A DNA stretch of 64,000 nucleotides from Streptomyces sp. WM6378 (GTDB lineage: Bacteria > Actinomycetota > Actinomycetes > Streptomycetales > Streptomycetaceae), in NCBI RefSeq assembly GCF_001279695.1, contig NZ_LGDD01000121.1, positions 1 to 64,000 on the forward strand. The letters are read 5' to 3'. Below are positions 2,265-20,564 of the stretch, piece by piece; the stretch's first letter is position 1, and the number at the start of each line of letters is the position of its first letter. The notes below the pieces were generated by a model that saw nothing but the letters and a program-made list of their open reading frames with translations, made no database searches and had not been told where the DNA came from. The position numbers and the translations under genes are program-made.

Positions 2265-3863
2265 CTAGTCGGCCTGCTTGACGCAGGTCTCGTCCTTCTT
2301 CGGCAGCTTGCCGGTGGCCAGGTAGGTGTTGACCTTGTTATCCACGCAGTCGTTGCCGTAGAGCCCGTAGAGGGCGTGGCGGTTGGCGCCCTTGAGGGTG
2401 AGCAGTTTGGAGCTCGGCAGCTGCTTGTGCAGGTCGAGGCTGCTGCGGTAGGTGGTGCGGGGGTCGCCGGTGGCGGCGACGATCAGCATCTTGGCGTCGC
2501 GGCGCACCTGGGTGGGCTGCTCACGGGGCGTATCCAGGAAGGCGCAGGTGCTGATGTTGTTGGCCACCGGTCCCATGATCGGGTGCTCGGCACGGCTGCG
2601 CTGGATGTCCTTCCAGTACGTTTCGGGGTCGCGCGGGGCCGGCTTGTCGCCGCAGATGATCGCGGCCTGCACGCCGGAGTTCGGCGACCCGCCGGTCAGG
2701 GCGGACTTCAGCGCGGCGGCGAACTCGGGCGACAGCTCGGTGGGCTGCCCCTTCGCCGCCTTGGCCAGTACGGAGACCTGTTCGGCGAACGAGGCCCGCG
2801 TCTCGGGGGTGTCGTCCGAGTTCCCCGCGATGAAGAGGAACGGCACCTGGGTATCGTCGAGTTGGAAGGTGCCGGCGCCCTTGCCGACGGTCAGCGGGCC
2901 GCGCGCGGACGCCGCGACGATGCGGTCGAGGGTGTCGAGCACCGCGGCCCGGGTACTGCCGAGGCCGTAGGTGGCGTGGCGCTTCGCGGCCCAGGCGGCC
3001 CAGGCGGAGAGGGCCTGCTCGTTCTCGCGCTCGGAGCCCTTCAGCAGCCGGGGGCCGTAGTCGGCCGGGGCGATCGCCCCGTCGAGGACGAAGCGGTCGT
3101 ACTTGCCGGGAAACATCTGGGTGTAGACGGTGCCGAGGTAACTGCCGTACGAGTAGCCCAGGTAGGAGATCTTGCGTTCGCCGAGCGCGCCCCTGATGAC
3201 GTCCATGTCGCGGGCCGTGTTGCGGGTGCTGACGTGCGGCAGAACGGAGCCGCTGGTGGCGCGGCACTTGTCGGCCAGGCCCTTCTTGAAGGCGACCTGG
3301 CGCTCGAAACTCGCCCGGCTGAGACCGGCCGAGCGGATGTCGGTGCCGACGGGCCAGCCGCAGTCCAGTGGGGTGCTGCGGCCCACGAAGCGCGGGTCGA
3401 AGCCGATGATGTCGTAGCGCGGCCCGGTCTTCTTCATCATTTTGCGCACGTCCGGCGGGGACTGGACGGCGGGGCCGCCAGGGCCGCCGTTGTTGAGGAG
3501 GATCGAGCCGATGCGGTGGCGGGTGTCGGTGGCCTTGAGCCGGGATATCGCGACGGTGATCGTACGGCCCCGGGGGTCGGCGTAGTCCAGCGGTACGAGT
3601 ACGTCGGCGCACTGCACGCCGGCCTTGTCCAGGTCGCGGCCCATCGCGTCGTCGGGGCCCTTGGCACAACTGCCCCAGCCCGGACGCTGGTTGTAGTAGC
3701 GGTCGAGGCCGGTCCCGGCGCTGCTCTTGGCCGTGGCCGTGGCCGTGCTGGTACTCGCGGCCGTGCTCGTGGCCGTGGCCAGGGCGGGAGTCGTGGTGAG
3801 GGCGGCGGCGAGGGCGAGGCCCGCGGCCGAAGCGCGGCGTGCGGTGGTGGTGAGCATGGTCAC
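2265..3863 (-). CDS. Secreted S33-family (tripeptidyl aminopeptidase-like) alpha/beta hydrolase
   Basis: A 532-residue exported hydrolase resembling the Streptomyces tripeptidyl aminopeptidase/SlpD/SlpE group (family S33). It begins with a basic stretch and a hydrophobic signal peptide ending around ALA at residue 29, followed by an Ala/Thr/Ser-rich linker. The oxyanion region NNGGPGGPA is at about 124-132 and the nucleophile elbow G-Y-S-Y-G at 236-240 (Ser238). A late GDPRTTY and the C-terminal NRHALYG (probable catalytic His) follow. It likely trims short peptides from protein N-termini outside the cell. Its ATG overlaps the stop of the upstream serine hydrolase by four bases (ATGA), so the two are probably co-translated. 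Confidence 0.9.
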   Translation of the reverse strand: MTMLTTTARRASAAGLALAAALTTTPALATATSTAASTSTATATAKSSAGTGLDRYYNQRPGWGSCAKGPDDAMGRDLDKAGVQCADVLVPLDYADPRGRTITVAISRLKATDTRHRIGSILLNNGGPGGPAVQSPPDVRKMMKKTGPRYDIIGFDPRFVGRSTPLDCGWPVGTDIRSAGLSRASFERQVAFKKGLADKCRATSGSVLPHVSTRNTARDMDVIRGALGERKISYLGYSYGSYLGTVYTQMFPGKYDRFVLDGAIAPADYGPRLLKGSERENEQALSAWAAWAAKRHATYGLGSTRAAVLDTLDRIVAASARGPLTVGKGAGTFQLDDTQVPFLFIAGNSDDTPETRASFAEQVSVLAKAAKGQPTELSPEFAAALKSALTGGSPNSGVQAAIICGDKPAPRDPETYWKDIQRSRAEHPIMGPVANNISTCAFLDTPREQPTQVRRDAKMLIVAATGDPRTTYRSSLDLHKQLPSSKLLTLKGANRHALYGLYGNDCVDNKVNTYLATGKLPKKDETCVKQAD

Positions 3864-5125
3864 GCGGTCTTCTCCTGGAACGGGTGGGTGCGGTCGGTGG
3901 GGCAGAAGGCGCCGTCCACTACGGCGCGGAAGTCGGCCTCGGCCTTGTCGGTGTCAGGGACCTGGTTGAGGGCGATGGCGATGCTGCGGCCGCCGGGGCC
4001 GCTCGCACCGAGCGCGCGGTGTCCGCCGGGCACGGTCCCGCCGTGCCCCCACCACGTGCCGCCGCACTTCAGCGGCGACGAGACGAGGCCCAGCCCGTAG
4101 CGGGCGCCGGGCCACAGCCGGTCGGGGTCGGCGGGCACGGTGCGCTTCATTTCGGCGAGCCAGCGCGCGGGCACCAGCTTCCCGCCGAACAGCCCCTGGT
4201 AGAACCGGTTCACATCGGCCGGGGTGGAGACCAGGGCACCGCCCGCACCGCCGAAGGTCACGTTCCACTCGGTACCGTCGACCTGCCGGCCCGAGCCGCC
4301 CGGATCGGGGAAGTAGCTGCGCGAGTGCGCGCCCCGGACGCGAGTGGCATCGCCCGGCCAGTACGTGTCGCGCAGGCCGAGCGGCCCCAGGATCCGCCGC
4401 GAGACCTCCGCCTCGATGCCGCGCCCGCTCACCTTCTCGACGATGAGCCCGGCGACGAGGGTGTTGGTGGTCGCGTAGTGCCACTTCTTGACCGGGCGCT
4501 CCATCGTGAGCGCGGTCGCGATCAGCTCACGCGGCTCGAAGTGGCGGTAGCGCCACTCGTTCACGGGTCTGTCGGCGATGGCCTCGACGTAGTCGGGAAG
4601 GCCACTGGTGTGCTGGAGCAGCTGCCGTACGGTGATCTTCCGACCGTCGTAGCCGTTGCCCCGGATCAGCCCCGGAAGATACCGCTCGACCGGAGCGTCC
4701 AGCTCGATCCGGCCCTCGGCGGCCAGTTGAACCACCACCGTCGCGGTGAACGTCTTGGTGACACTGCCGATGCGCAGCCGGTCGTCGGCGTTCATCGGGC
4801 GCCCGGTGTCCCGGTCGGCGACGCCCCGCGCGGCCTTCCAGCGGCCGCACTCGGAGTCGGCCACCTCGGCGGCCGCACCCGCGATCCCGTGCCGGGTGAC
4901 GAGGGTGTCCAGGGACGCGGTGAGCGCTCCACGCGCCGCCACGTCGCACCCGGCGGGCACGCTGGGCCCGGGCGCCGCAGCCGAGGCGATAGAAACGTTC
5001 GAGGCGTTCGCGCTGGGAACGGCGACCGCCAACACAGCCGATGCCGCGCCCAAAGCCACCGCGTACCGGTTCGGCCGGGCTGTTCTGATGGGGGATTTCT
5101 CTGCTCTGAGGTGCGTATGTGTCAC
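3860..5125 (-). CDS. Secreted serine hydrolase, beta-lactamase/DD-carboxypeptidase family
   Basis: A 421-residue penicillin-binding-protein-like hydrolase (beta-lactamase superfamily, class C/esterase type). The N-terminus carries a Sec-type hydrophobic segment after RPNRY (about 20-45). The active-site S-x-x-K is S121-V-T-K124, a Y-A-T triad motif follows near residue 215, and WWGHGG near the C-terminus replaces KTG. These are the usual features of secreted D-alanyl-D-alanine carboxypeptidases and related esterases. The gene is the first of a two-gene operon with the S33 peptidase. Substrate cannot be deduced; both products probably act on extracellular peptides or peptidoglycan. Confidence 0.88.
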   Translation of the reverse strand: MTHTHLRAEKSPIRTARPNRYAVALGAASAVLAVAVPSANASNVSIASAAAPGPSVPAGCDVAARGALTASLDTLVTRHGIAGAAAEVADSECGRWKAARGVADRDTGRPMNADDRLRIGSVTKTFTATVVVQLAAEGRIELDAPVERYLPGLIRGNGYDGRKITVRQLLQHTSGLPDYVEAIADRPVNEWRYRHFEPRELIATALTMERPVKKWHYATTNTLVAGLIVEKVSGRGIEAEVSRRILGPLGLRDTYWPGDATRVRGAHSRSYFPDPGGSGRQVDGTEWNVTFGGAGGALVSTPADVNRFYQGLFGGKLVPARWLAEMKRTVPADPDRLWPGARYGLGLVSSPLKCGGTWWGHGGTVPGGHRALGASGPGGRSIAIALNQVPDTDKAEADFRAVVDGAFCPTDRTHPFQEKTA

Positions 5126-6542: not shown

Positions 6543-6580
6543 AAAACCCGTTGGGCGGACCCGGCGGCCGCTGCTAACCT
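6543..6580 (+). promoter_or_regulatory. Putative WhiB7-type promoter for the leader/hydrolase unit
   Basis: AAAA at 6543-6546 lies just upstream of TTGGGC (6551-6556). An 18-base spacer separates this from TAACCT (6575-6580). An A/T-rich block immediately upstream of a TTG-type -35 is the established signature of WhiB7/WblC-activated SigA promoters. The acetyltransferase promoter at 20508-20546 has the same arrangement with the same spacer. Confidence 0.45.
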
Positions 6581-6617
6581 CCTGGAGGCCGTGCGAGAGA
6601 ACGAGGAGGTGGTACCC

Positions 6618-6671
6618 GTGAGCGCAGTATCGACGTGGGTGCTCCCCTCCGGGGTCACGGTCGGGCGATAG
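6618..6671 (+). CDS. 17-residue leader peptide (STWVLP type)
   Basis: A short ORF with GTG start and TAG stop encodes VSAVSTWVLPSGVTVGR. GAGGAGGT lies seven bases upstream of the GTG. It is 12 of 17 residues identical to the leader at 20417-20470, which has the same length and the same Shine-Dalgarno spacing and also precedes a hairpin and a resistance-like gene. Conservation of a short peptide directly upstream of a hairpin suggests ribosome-dependent attenuation: stalling in the leader would change folding of the following hairpin and allow expression of the hydrolase at 6716. It is too short for ordinary gene calling. The role is inferred. Confidence 0.6.
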   Translation: MSAVSTWVLPSGVTVGR

Positions 6672-6677
6672 GTCGTC

Positions 6678-6703
6678 CGGGAGCGCCGTTCAACGCCCTC
6701 CCG
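6678..6703 (+). terminator. Leader hairpin (putative attenuator) before the hydrolase
   Basis: CGGGAG (6678-6683) pairs with CTCCCG (6698-6703), with two further possible internal G-C pairs. There is no U-tract. The 3' arm runs straight into AAAGGCA, which contains the hydrolase ribosome binding site. The counterpart at 20375-20404 shares the 13-base string CTCCCGAAAGGCA. It could terminate transcription or restrict ribosome access. Confidence 0.5.
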
Positions 6704-6715
6704 AAAGGCACGATC

Positions 6716-7450
6716 ATGCAATTCACTTCTGAACAGCGTCTCGACGACGGCGTCCTTGAGCGCGAATTCATCCTCGGTGAGATCCCCGGCATCCTGTGGA
6801 CGCCCGGATCCGCATCCGCACCGTCGCCGCTGATCCTGCTCGGCCCCCCTCCTCTCGGGCTGCGCAAGGCGTACCCCCGACTGGTGGCCCGAGCACGGCA
6901 CGCCGCGGCGGACGGCTTCGCCACGGCCACCATCGAGCTCCCCGGGAACGGCGACCGGCCCCGTTGGCCCGCCGCCGAGCAGGCCCTCGCCGACCTGCGC
7001 CGGGCTATGGAGGCCGGCGAACCGGTCAGCGGCGAGATCATCGACGCCCTCGTCCTCCCGCTGGTCGACAAGGCGGTCCCGGAATGGCAGACCGCCCTGG
7101 ACGCCCTCTTGGAGCTGCCCGAGATCGGCGGCCGGGTCGGGTACTCGGGGGGAGTGATCTCCATCGGGACCCGGCTGGCGGTGGTCGAGCCTCGCATCTC
7201 GGCCGCTGTTCTGTTCGCCGGGAGTTTCGTCCCTCGCGCCATGTTCGAGGAGGCCCGCCGGGTCTCCATTCCGCTGCACGTCCTGCTGCAGTGGGACGAC
7301 GAAGGCAACGACCGGCAGGCGGCCCTGGACCTGTTCGACGCCTTCGGCTCCAAGGAGAAGACGCTGAACGCCAATATGGGCGGGCACACAGGCGTCCCGC
7401 AGTTCGCAGGGGACGCCGCCGCCGGGTTCTTCATTCGGCATTTGCGCTAG
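6716..7450 (+). CDS. Dienelactone-hydrolase-like alpha/beta hydrolase
   Basis: A 244-residue cytoplasmic alpha/beta hydrolase. The nucleophile elbow is G142-Y-S144-G-G, a QWDDEG segment near 210 probably supplies the acid, and MGGHTGVPQF near the end supplies the histidine. Start chosen at the ATG preceded by GAAAGG; upstream in-frame codons overlap the leader hairpin. The gene is preceded by a WhiB7-like promoter, a conserved 17-codon leader peptide and a hairpin, the same layout as the GNAT gene at 19563. The context therefore suggests an antibiotic- or translation-stress-induced hydrolase that might open a lactone or ester in an inhibitor. The catalytic family is clear; the substrate is unknown. 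Confidence 0.82.
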   Translation: MQFTSEQRLDDGVLEREFILGEIPGILWTPGSASAPSPLILLGPPPLGLRKAYPRLVARARHAAADGFATATIELPGNGDRPRWPAAEQALADLRRAMEAGEPVSGEIIDALVLPLVDKAVPEWQTALDALLELPEIGGRVGYSGGVISIGTRLAVVEPRISAAVLFAGSFVPRAMFEEARRVSIPLHVLLQWDDEGNDRQAALDLFDAFGSKEKTLNANMGGHTGVPQFAGDAAAGFFIRHLR

Positions 7451-7684: not shown

Positions 7685-8833
7685 TCAGGCGTCAGCCGCA
7701 TACCGCCAGAACTCCCTGATCACCGGGGCCGGCACCGGGCTCATCGCTGCCACCTGGGTCAGCAGGATGGTGATCGCACCCGTTGCCGGGATCACGTGTG
7801 CCGCGGTGCCCGTGCCGCCGACCCAGCCGTAACGGCCCGGGACGTTCCACGGATTGGTCCGGTCGATATCGACCGAGCCGCCGAAGCCCCAGCCCTGGCC
7901 GTCCAGGAACAGCCGGCCGATGTCGCGCTGATCCGGATTCGTATGGTCGGTCATCATCATGCGTACGGAGTCGGCCGACAGCACCCGGGTGCCGTCGGCC
8001 GACAGCCCGCCGGCCAGCAGCATCCGGCAGAACGCGAGCCAGTCGTCGGCGGTAGAGGCCAGTCCGCCACTGCCGAGCGGCAGCGCGGGCAGACTGCTCC
8101 ACTCCCCGTCCGGGCCGTCGGCGAGCTCCAGGCTGCCGTCGTCTCCGGAGCGGTAATAGCTGGTGAACCTGCCGCGTTTGACGGCCGGCACCTCGAAACC
8201 CGTGTCCGACATGCCGAGCGGACCGAAGATCCGCTCGGCCAGGAACTCCGGCAGCGACTGTCCGGTGACCCGGGAGATCAGCACCCCCTGCAGTACGGAG
8301 CAGGTGTCGTACAGCCAGGCATCGCCCGGCTGGTACAGCAGCGGAACACTGCCGAGCACCGACATCCACTCGTCCGCCGGCGGAAAGTTGCTCGGCACCC
8401 GGCCGTCCTTCTGCACCGTAAACAAGTGCTGCACCGCGGGCAGGGTGAAGTCGGAGGAGAATCCGTACCCGGCCTGGGAGGCCAGCACGTCGAACACGGT
8501 GATGGGCCGGGCGGCCGGCACCACGTCGTCCACCGGGCTCGCCGGAGTGCGTACGACCAACGGCTTCTCCAGCTCCGGCAGCCACGTCCCGACCGAATCA
8601 TCCAGTGCGAGCCGGCCTTCCTCCACAAGGACCAGCACCGCCGCAGCGGTAACGGACTTGGTGATCGAAGCGACCCGGAAGATGGAGTCCCTGGTCATCG
8701 GGGCGCCGCCCAAGGCGTCCTGCGAACCGGTGGCCTCCACCTCGACCCGGTCGCCGCGTGCCACAAGAGCGACGGCGCCCGGCAGCGTACCGGCACCTAC
8801 ATGGGCATCAAGCAAGTCGTGCAGGGTAGTCAT
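7685..8833 (-). CDS. Serine hydrolase, beta-lactamase family (cytoplasmic type)
   Basis: A 382-residue beta-lactamase-superfamily hydrolase of the esterase EstB/class C type. The catalytic S-x-x-K is S56-I-T-K59, a Y-D-T motif lies near residue 172, and GWVGGTGT near the C-terminus stands in for the KTG box. No signal peptide is visible after the chosen ATG (MTTLHDLLDAHV), which has GGAAGG nine bases upstream. Longer in-frame starts exist but lack a binding site. The gene is convergent with the alpha/beta hydrolase on the left. It is not closely related to the exported hydrolase at 3860. Likely substrates are esters or small amides; resistance to beta-lactams is not implied. Confidence 0.88.
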   Translation of the reverse strand: MTTLHDLLDAHVGAGTLPGAVALVARGDRVEVEATGSQDALGGAPMTRDSIFRVASITKSVTAAAVLVLVEEGRLALDDSVGTWLPELEKPLVVRTPASPVDDVVPAARPITVFDVLASQAGYGFSSDFTLPAVQHLFTVQKDGRVPSNFPPADEWMSVLGSVPLLYQPGDAWLYDTCSVLQGVLISRVTGQSLPEFLAERIFGPLGMSDTGFEVPAVKRGRFTSYYRSGDDGSLELADGPDGEWSSLPALPLGSGGLASTADDWLAFCRMLLAGGLSADGTRVLSADSVRMMMTDHTNPDQRDIGRLFLDGQGWGFGGSVDIDRTNPWNVPGRYGWVGGTGTAAHVIPATGAITILLTQVAAMSPVPAPVIREFWRYAADA

Positions 8834-9087
8834 GAGGCCGCCTTCCGGGAGGTTGCTGTCGGACGACAGACTCCCGTACGGGCCGGGAATCATCGGCGCC
8901 GACAGGCCTCGCGGCCGGCCCCGCGTCACAGTCACAGCCCCTATGAGCGGGTCCTGGCTGTAGCCATCCGCAGATCGGGTGGTGGCGGTGATGGGGTCAC
9001 TGAATCTGCGGCTGCCCCGAGTGGCCGGCTAAGACGCCGGTGCCCGGCCAAGAGCTGAGCGGGACCGGTCACGACCGGTAGGGCAGC

Positions 9088-19562: not shown

Positions 19563-20360
19563 TCAGCCGCGGACCAATTCCAGGTTGCCGCCCACGCGCT
19601 GGGCGCCGACGCCGCCGAACAGCGCCCTGGCCGGTCCGTTGGACTCGTCCACCTCGGCCCATGCCGTCGCCTCCCCAGAGCGGTGCAACGAGCCCAGCGC
19701 CTGGGCCAGCATCGCCCGGGCGATGCCACGGCGCTGCCGGTCGGCCCGGACCGCGATCAGCCCGATCCGCGGCCGCCGGGGTACCGGCGCCACCCGGAGC
19801 AGTCCCACGTAGCGGCCCGACTCCGCCGCGACCACGTACTTCGACGGGTCGACCACGGTGCTCCCGCCCGGGCGAAGCAGCACTTCGGCCGGCATCGCTT
19901 GCCAGCCGAGCGTGGCCTCGACCTCATCGCGGATCGTGCGGTCCAGAGCGCGTAGCGGCCCCTCCTGCGCCTCACCGGCAGGCACGACCGTCATGCCCGG
20001 CGGCAGTCGCACAGAGCCCAGCCCGGTGACTTCCGGGTCAGTGGGCACGAGGTACTCGCGCTCGCGGCGCCGGATCCTGAAGCCCGCTCGCTGCCAGTTG
20101 GCCGTCGAGTCGAGGTCGGCTTCGTCGACCACGGTATGGAGCGGCGTCGGCAGGTCCGCCACCATCGCGGCGGCAAGCCGGTCGAACGCCGCCCCGTGCC
20201 ACGCGTCCACGCTCACGAAGAGCCGGCCGTCGAACCGCTGCGCCGCGTCACCGCGGCCGACCACCCGGCCGCCCTCCACGGCGTGCCACTGCTGCTCCGC
20301 GACTCGCGTGACCACGACCGCGTGCCCGTCCGGGCCTGGAGCGAAATGCACAGAATTCAT
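19563..20360 (-). CDS. GNAT family N-acetyltransferase
   Basis: A 265-residue protein with a less conserved N-terminal half and a C-terminal GNAT domain. The acetyl-CoA-binding loop is visible as RADRQRRGIARAML, followed by a DESNGPARALF helix and a final strand, a typical motif A/B arrangement. It transfers acetyl groups to an amine; the substrate is unknown. ATG chosen at 20360 with GAAAGG upstream; a longer frame would overlap the upstream hairpin. It is preceded by a 17-codon leader peptide, a perfect 10-bp hairpin and a WhiB7-like promoter, so it is likely to be induced by ribosome-targeting compounds. An IF-1 paralogue follows. A role in drug acetylation is an inference from this regulation. 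Confidence 0.82.
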   Translation of the reverse strand: MNSVHFAPGPDGHAVVVTRVAEQQWHAVEGGRVVGRGDAAQRFDGRLFVSVDAWHGAAFDRLAAAMVADLPTPLHTVVDEADLDSTANWQRAGFRIRRREREYLVPTDPEVTGLGSVRLPPGMTVVPAGEAQEGPLRALDRTIRDEVEATLGWQAMPAEVLLRPGGSTVVDPSKYVVAAESGRYVGLLRVAPVPRRPRIGLIAVRADRQRRGIARAMLAQALGSLHRSGEATAWAEVDESNGPARALFGGVGAQRVGGNLELVRG

Positions 20361-20374
20361 AGGGTGCTGCCTTT

Positions 20375-20404
20375 CGGGAGTGCCTTGTCGTTGTGGCACT
20401 CCCG
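20375..20404 (-). terminator. Leader hairpin (putative attenuator) before GNAT gene
   Basis: A perfect 10-bp stem: CGGGAGTGCC and its complement (20375-20384 with 20395-20404) around a ten-base loop. Read on the minus strand, the 3' arm runs into AAAGGCA, the acetyltransferase ribosome binding site, giving the same 13-base string as at the hydrolase leader. It may also end transcription from the sugar-transport operon to its right. Confidence 0.6.
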
Positions 20405-20416
20405 GCGACACCTATG

Positions 20417-20470
20417 TCAGCCGCCCGCCGTGACGAAGAGGGGGAGCACCCACGTGCTTACTGCGTTCAC
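20417..20470 (-). CDS. 17-residue leader peptide (STWVLP type)
   Basis: A minus-strand ORF with GTG start and TGA stop encodes VNAVSTWVLPLFVTAGG. AGGAGGT is placed seven bases upstream, exactly as in the plus-strand leader at 6618-6671, with which it shares 12 of 17 residues including the block AVSTWVLP. Its stop is followed by 12 bases and then the hairpin preceding the GNAT start. Conservation of peptide, length and spacing between two unrelated downstream genes argues for a regulatory leader that senses translation. The stall signal would most likely be in or after STWVLP; that is inference. Confidence 0.6.
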   Translation of the reverse strand: MNAVSTWVLPLFVTAGG

Positions 20471-20507
20471 GGGTCTCACCTCCTGGCGGTCTGTCACGTT
20501 GTCGCGC

Positions 20508-20546
20508 ACGCTACCGGCCGAGGTCCGCACACCTCAACCTCTTTTT
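20508..20546 (-). promoter_or_regulatory. Putative WhiB7-type promoter for the leader/GNAT unit
   Basis: On the minus strand, GAAAAAG (about 20540-20546) lies just upstream of TTGAGG (20537-20532). An 18-base spacer leads to TAGCGT (20513-20508). The order and spacing match the promoter at 6543-6580. The A-rich block next to a TTG-type -35 is the known WhiB7/WblC target feature. Confidence 0.45.
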
Positions 20547-20564
20547 CTTCCGCGCCTTACGGGG

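Follow-up and report, generated by a model that had tools for sequence, protein, structure and literature searches.

A widespread actinobacterial leader RNA with four pairing segments, proposed to turn genes on when a ribosome is held at its start codon

Upstream of a GNAT-family acetyltransferase gene of Streptomyces sp. WM6378 lies a leader element that is probably a four-segment RNA attenuator of actinobacteria, in which the downstream gene comes on when a ribosome is detained on the first codons of a short leader ORF. Comparison of its copies indicates that the conserved entity is the RNA and not a sensor peptide, and the leader apparently belongs to a large actinobacterial family of RNA switches, undescribed so far. 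In the proposed scheme, the segments are the leader ribosome-binding site (segment 1), GGGTGCTCCC (segment 2), GGGAGYGCC (segment 3), and GGCACTCCC, beside the gene Shine–Dalgarno (SD) sequence (segment 4). As long as the leader carries no ribosome, segment 1 would pair with segment 2, and a 3:4 hairpin would hold the gene off. A ribosome at the first leader codons would cover 1 and free 2, allowing 2:3 to form in the nascent RNA; no 3:4 pairing would then lie over the gene SD, and the gene would be translated. Ribosomes passing through the leader would leave no lasting 2:3 pairing, and the likely inducers would be drugs or stresses that trap initiating ribosomes.

The window, i.e. the whole 64,000-nucleotide stretch of DNA that was analyzed, contains two copies of the element. 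Their features are as follows.

20360–20550, minus strand: leader element, GNAT copy (sequence inspection)
20542..20546, minus strand: A-run upstream of the −35 box, predicted WblC/WhiB7-type activator site (GAAAWY-like; motif from the available part of PMC7157823)
20532..20537, minus strand: −35 box TTGAGG (sequence and promoter motif scan)
20508..20513, minus strand: −10 box TAGCGT, spacer 18 nt (sequence and promoter motif scan)
about 20500, minus strand: expected transcription start, placed by the 7–8-bp distance in the same part of PMC7157823
20471..20484, minus strand: segment 1, leader SD AGGAGGTGA plus GACCC, modelled partner of segment 2 when the ribosome is absent
20484–20476, minus strand: leader SD AGGAGGTGA (sequence)
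20417..20470, minus strand: leader ORF GTG...TGA, 17 codons plus TGA, peptide (V/M)NAVSTWVLPLFVTAGG
20442..20451, minus strand: segment 2, GGGTGCTCCC, within the W-V-L-P codons (codon bias, covariation)
20404..20425, minus strand: putative spacer hairpin H2 (GGCGGC...GTCGCC), spanning the leader stop (pairing count)
20395..20403, minus strand: segment 3, GGGAGTGCC; family consensus GGGAGCGCC, also written GGGAGYGCC (duplex energies, covariation)
20376..20384, minus strand: segment 4, GGCACTCCC, partner of segment 3 (sequence, duplex energies)
20404–20395 with 20384–20375, minus strand: 10-bp stem CGGGAGTGCC/GGCACTCCCG (sequence)
20370..20375, minus strand: gene SD GAAAGG, abutting the 3:4 stem (sequence)
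19563..20360, minus strand: GNAT-family acetyltransferase, 265 aa, predicted tandem-GNAT fold (Pfam PF00583, 9e-11)
6543..6671, plus strand: sister copy with A-run, −35 TTGGGC, −10 TAACCT, SD and leader ORF (sequence)
6618–6671, plus strand: sister leader ORF, GTG 6618 to TAG 6671, peptide (V/M)SAVSTWVLPSGVTVGR
6679..6708, plus strand: sister segments 3 (6679–6687) and 4 (6695–6702) and gene SD GAAAGG (6703–6708)
6716..7450, plus strand: type-A alpha/beta-hydrolase-like protein, 244 aa (PDB 4ao6, an esterase, E 2.4e-14)

The original prediction had the GNAT leader repeating one near 6.6 kb, and the sequence bore this out: by inspection, AGGAGGT stands at the same distance and 12 of 17 residues are identical, a perfect 10-bp stem follows the GNAT leader, the 13-mer CTCCCGAAAGGCA is common to both copies, and the promoter has the A-run, TTG −35 box and 18-nt spacer claimed for it, together with the −10 box TAGCGT. 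The stem at 6.6 kb, GGGAGCGCC with GCCCTCCC, is imperfect and also shorter, and the duplex comparison of close copies shows that a perfect stem, as in the GNAT copy, is exceptional within the family. When the 201-base region was searched against the whole genome by blastn, the 6.6 kb copy was recovered (E 2.2e-11) together with a third copy, C289 (E 3.5e-31), which precedes another alpha/beta hydrolase; beyond these and the query itself, no further match was found at E ≤ 0.001. A genome search with covariance model R2 likewise returned exactly these three copies. Because genome-wide blastn returns just three copies, and 217 of 295 same-genus genomes match (blastn, 135 bases, two candidates scored per genome), the likeness of the leaders is not a matter of chance. 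The GNAT and C289 hydrolase genes also begin with the same 14 coding bases, ATGAATTCTGTGCA. The type-A hydrolase at 6716..7450 has no Pfam match. It is flanked together with its leader by two minus-strand PF00144 beta-lactamase-family proteins (3860–5125 and 7685–8935), with a TAP-like hydrolase nearby at 2265–3863.

A pattern scan of named genomes gave at least 117 loci from many actinomycete genera, and covariance models R1 and R2 matched 120 and 132 of 394 genomes of the class, respectively, each in 43 of 137 genera. In a sample of the phylum, 11 of 198 genomes matched, all from the window's class. PLSDB yielded 32 records matching the leader region, some of them chromosome-sized, from Streptomyces, Embleya, Streptantibioticus, Arthrobacter, Nonomuraea, Tsukamurella and Rhodococcus. 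Rfam gave no family over the whole window at gathering cut-offs, and at E ≤ 5 none of the hits at five loci came near cut-off (chance level), the sub-threshold overlap with the element being Pab91 in L210 at 24 of 71 bits. Four leader-peptide strings occurred in none of the open-access papers searched. Exclusion of L072 and L075 reduced 120 close copies to 118. In five type-A copies (L061, L075, L081, L097 and L149), the leader continues beyond the usual stop (25 to 194 codons), and in L075 the stem region is absent. In L049 (Streptomyces lilacinus), a run of N followed by GATGTGTATAAGAGACAG stands upstream of the leader; GATGTGTATAAGAGACAG looks like the end of a sequencing adapter, so the promoter has probably been truncated here by faulty assembly.

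Assignment by tblastn with four seeds placed 63 of 117 loci fetched from the matches listed before a type-A hydrolase, 24 before a Rox-type gene, 18 before a type-B hydrolase and 10 before a GNAT; at the other two, the gene is cut off and was not assigned. These counts replaced crude text-rule classes (54/24/21/9 with 9 unassigned) and, as with all downstream-gene classes given here, rest on fetched loci, a minority of the genomes matched by blastn, R1 or R2. L057, the one of the 24 Rox-type proteins tested, scored as a putative NCBIfam rif_monoox equivalog (834 bits, cut-off 800) and matched the “Rifampin monooxygenase” of PDB entry 5vqb (E 1.4e-212); a plasmid copy was labelled by RGI as S. 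venezuelae rox (66.9% identity). No ABCF gene was seen among copies with an identified downstream gene. Among more distant copies, some lie before genes for patatin-like proteins (nine loci judged by sequence, of which L185 matches PF01734) and others before PrmC-related methyltransferases (L203, TIGR03704, 417 bits, cut-off 249). The element was present at 29 of 30 fetched TIGR03704-like genes (18 by pattern, 11 by eye); the exception, L268, is the window genome's own gene (C358:7680-8450), which retains GAAAGGG before its start.

The idea of a portable cassette was upheld insofar as an attenuator-like leader is common to unrelated genes, some of them from a drug-modifying family (Rox-type). 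Several Rox-type proteins open with a type-B hydrolase stretch (L143 versus L114), and most GNATs have their first codons in common with the type-B hydrolase; such shared 5′ ends across gene families therefore indicate, at the level of sequence, that promoter, leader and gene 5′ end are swapped between genes. The window GNAT itself was modelled with AlphaFold2 from 10 aligned sequences, with a mean pLDDT of 82; L150, whose frame is short, was kept out of the GNAT alignment. The best-matching folds were tandem GNATs, including M. abscessus MAB_4324 and mycothiol synthase MshD (TM ~0.6), and PDB 7q3a matched at E 1.5e-14. The predicted fold does not allow a substrate to be assigned, and the sequence matches are RimI-like and weak; a possible drug-inactivating role is suggested by the company the gene keeps. 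L189, a distant GNAT relative that scores 52 bits against the seed (gene model 152 aa) and belongs to a different family within the class, has the leader VNVSRMWVLPPFSRST.

For close copies, the finding of W-V-L-P is no evidence of peptide conservation, because the scan pattern forced TGGGTNCTNCC; the third positions of codons 8–10 were, however, left free. At these, codon 8 is GTG in 118/118, codon 9 CTC in 115/118 and codon 10 CCC in 107/118 copies, with downstream-gene usage of 34, 29 and 39%, respectively, and codon 4 is GTA in 108/118 against a usage of 4%. Residue 6 varies outside the type-A group. Patatin-type copies carry GGGTGCTCCC in another frame, e.g. MNAVSAMGAPLQ..., read as M-G-A-P, and in 7 of 46 PrmC-type copies segment 2 lies in a different phase with the start-to-stop frame retained. 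The conserved STWVLP sensor peptide that had been proposed is contradicted by these synonymous positions, fixed against usage, and by the other frames of distant copies; amino acid conservation independent of codon choice, the erm-type hallmark, was not found. An erm-like stall, in which a drug-bound ribosome arrests on nascent (M)NAVSxWVLP, could draw on the N, A, V and S of codons 2–5, which are largely kept in the 118 close copies, but we consider it improbable given the same codon and frame evidence and the modelled lack of 2:3 pairing with a ribosome at codons 4–12.

Segment 2 is the complement of GGGAGCGCC, which makes up the stem's 5′ arm. Alignment A1 comprised 75 of the 118 close copies (all non-type-A copies plus 20 type-A copies, 19 of them random and one the window's); in it, 99.6% of the 2:3 cells are paired, and 3:4 carries a C·A mismatch in 69/75. 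Covariation in A1 was no better than in shuffles, one 2:3 measure excepted (8/500), because almost nothing varies, and this holds equally for the presumed OFF-state structure (leader hairpin, H2 and 3:4). Alignment A3 held 59 diverse copies: 63 listed, less 13 left out by hand (near-duplicates, unusual lengths, one misparsed copy and L270, which has an ATG start), plus 9 close copies, with L201, L204, L197, L200 and L254 not parsed for the list; its rows were hand-chosen, so it is not a random sample. Here, 95.4% of the 2:3 cells were paired and 14 cells showed a double change, one C-G pair having become U-A in 13 copies. None of 500 shuffles matched the percentage paired, the double-change cells or the covariation score, although related sequences may exceed shuffles without any structure, as the tool warns. 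Slid versions of 2:3 were lower on all three measures, and whole-row reshuffling gave 0/1000. The other two of five measures fell within the shuffles (pairs with double change, 98/500; pair types, 83/500). An earlier 2:3 shuffle test on 39 ad hoc distant copies, in which several start codons and the L224 segment were misplaced, was not significant, since 239/2000 shuffles reached the observed value. The covariation check suggested with the original prediction thus came out in favor of 2:3 on three of five measures in the diverse set, but not in the close set, nor for 1:2 or 3:4, which had no covariation support.

Two further pairings were scored. All six H2 pairs are possible in 107/117 copies, with several compensated variants, a count flattered by the choice of the best-placed partner in the window. 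An outer stem between leader stop and gene start was no better than reshuffles in type-A copies (5.73 versus a reshuffle mean of 5.70) and slightly better in the other types (6.31 versus a maximum of 6.24 in 200 reshuffles).

Duplex energies favored 2:3 over 3:4 in 117/118 copies (means of −18.2 and −12.4 kcal/mol, respectively). The sole exception is the window GNAT copy, in which 3:4 (−18.2) beats 2:3 (−15.8) because a T in its segment 3 makes 3:4 perfect. Folding of nascent RNA up to the end of segment 3 was modelled for 63 type-A and 54 other copies, and values are given in that order. With no ribosome, segment 2 was predicted to be held by the leader SD, and the probability of 2:3 was 0.00/0.07; with the P-site at codon 1 or 2, segment 3 would hold segment 2 instead (0.79/0.76 at codon 1). 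At codons 4–12, 2:3 was ~0, and it stayed near zero until codon 16. The codon-1 value was robust to footprint edges from +11 to +19 (0.65–0.92, n = 40), the codon-3 value depended on the footprint (0.67 at +11, 0 at +17), and codon-1 pairing lasted until the transcript reached ~20 nt past the start of segment 3, falling to 0.36 at 32 nt. In the model, then, 2:3 depends on ribosome position in the nascent RNA. Switching was weak in the GNAT copy (just 0.21/0.58 at codons 1/2), and 28 PrmC-type copies gave 0.57 without a ribosome and 0.93 at codon 1.

Pairing rose again with the P-site at codon 16 (0.57/0.56, and 0.8 in the 28 PrmC-type copies), which would fit a sensor of slow termination, in which segment 2, behind a ribosome waiting at the leader stop, and segment 3, in front of it, would both be free; the PrmC/HemK-type methyltransferase among the controlled genes would suit such a sensor as well. 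We nevertheless regard it as quite unlikely, since the pairing would have to form around a 70S ribosome, and the leader SD would have no reason to be the partner of segment 2. A ribosome held at the start is our preferred trigger. Equilibrium folding of the full-length leader, in which 3:4 dominates, counts against the scheme: wherever the ribosome was placed, mean gene SD accessibility stayed at ~0.4–0.7 and did not increase at codons 1–2. As this folding shows no switch, the model depends on co-transcriptional folding.

On the output side, the gene SD GAAAGG abuts the 3:4 stem and no U-run follows, so translational control is favored from sequence. Over 12 nt starting with the gene SD, 102/118 copies have no T, 15 have one and one has two, and a search of the minus strand found no terminator-like site at the stem; early transcript ends at a canonical terminator (a GC stem with a U-run), as first envisaged, did not survive this count. 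A transcription attenuator with unchanged sensing, in which 3:4 is a U-less terminator or Rho trigger and 2:3 the antiterminator, has precedents in Streptomyces: the sections of PMC8546547 available describe a mapped premature terminator with uORFs at lmrC, and those of PMC12421871 predict the same for are5sc/tiaA. The window stem, perfect over 10 bp, would also serve it. We judge this alternative unlikely but not negligible in view of the missing T residues and terminator-like site and the gene SD abutting the stem; moreover, in many PrmC-type copies CCTTCGG can, by inspection, pair with the gene SD CCGAAAGG. Translational output remains our preferred reading.

A second layer of control is indicated by the promoters. 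The motif was taken from S. coelicolor WblC data as given in the accessible portion of PMC7157823 (a GAAAWY-like site and a TANNNT −10), and its strict form was present in 92/119 close copies and 0/2380 letter shuffles. A looser form was found in type-A (50/64), Rox (23/24), type-B (14/19) and GNAT (9/10) copies, in 3/8 distant type-B relatives, in 1/46 PrmC-type copies and in 0/8 patatin-type copies; for the last two types, the strict form gave 0/46 and 1/8. Most close copies combine an A-rich site beside the −35 with a 16–19-nt spacer, as at WblC/WhiB7 promoters. In the same portion of PMC7157823, the WblC/WhiB7 regulon shows this site immediately before the −35, the 16–19-nt spacer and the TANNNT −10, and is described as promoter control; the leader RNA comes in addition, and occurs also without such a promoter (PrmC type). 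With a WblC-type promoter on most drug-enzyme copies, two control layers are expected there, of which the promoter would be the second and the RNA may be the older.

PrmC-type copies were parsed with a pattern requiring A or G and then T at the start and leaving the third base free (L254 not parsed). The start position is ATT, ATC or GTT in 18 pattern-found copies; the third base is T or C in 45/46 parsed copies (L270 has ATG) and in 18/19 further ones (L312 has ATG). The first stop lies 15–28 codons past the start position in 46/46 copies, and a stop within a narrow window occurs in 41/46 in the leader frame versus 8/46 and 2/46 in the other frames. This pattern suggests leader translation from AUU/AUC, although the PrmC-type leader could alternatively serve as a standby site for the 30S subunit, its stop being conserved. 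Both ATG and ATT/ATC/GTT starts occur among the type-B hydrolase relatives L043, L193, L198, L199, L204 and L205, and start-codon class is hence not one-to-one with gene family. As a tentative possibility, all copies may derive from one old initiation sensor, which later acquired AUG/GUG and a WblC promoter and spread by 5′ swaps to hydrolases, Rox and GNATs. The PrmC-like branch would keep AUU/AUC (rarely GUU/GUC) behind a strong SD with a closed ORF of ~19 codons, and the element would read ribosome dwell or permissiveness at the start, possibly IF3 discrimination, rather than a peptide.

Translational attenuators of the erm/cat type alternate 1:2/3:4 with 2:3, place the gene SD beside segment 4 and sense through an arrest peptide. 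The element shares this architecture and the position of the gene SD; between its promoter and the gene lies a short ORF that has an SD to itself, and it has mutually exclusive pairings, of which 2:3 covaries in A3. It differs in that erm/cat leaders sense with a nascent arrest peptide, and the element's peptide is not conserved across the family. By analogy, it may work like E. coli toiL, the uORF of topAI, at which tetracycline and retapamulin stall ribosomes on the start codon and so change how the RNA folds near the ribosome-binding site of the following gene (PMC12121999, in the part available); for the element, the nascent-RNA model shows such a pairing change, whereas the full-length equilibrium model shows none. 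As far as that part describes it, toiL is one operon with a toxin–antitoxin target, one repressive hairpin and Rho termination inside the gene, whereas the element has separate 1:2, 2:3 and 3:4 pairings before six gene families of actinobacteria. It also resembles the Streptomyces ABCF attenuators lmrC, are5sc and tiaA, 5′UTR attenuators with uORFs, but these have the uORF peptides MLV and MVGDDDISG and predicted or mapped terminators, and a tiaA transcription reporter was constitutive (PMC8546547 and PMC12421871, in the text available). The rifamycin-associated element (RAE), likewise reported upstream of a rox gene in S. venezuelae, is palindromic DNA, 19 bp long, at the promoter according to the available part of PMC10719064, whereas the element described here is leader RNA.

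If the proposed switch holds, one testable RNA rule would cover actinobacterial genes that include Rox-type monooxygenases and two alpha/beta-hydrolase families, and the two covariance models could be used to gather further candidate drug-modifying enzymes. The element would be a case in which RNA conservation alone makes a leader “peptide” look conserved, and its PrmC-type branch points to bacterial leaders that keep near-cognate start codons across a family.
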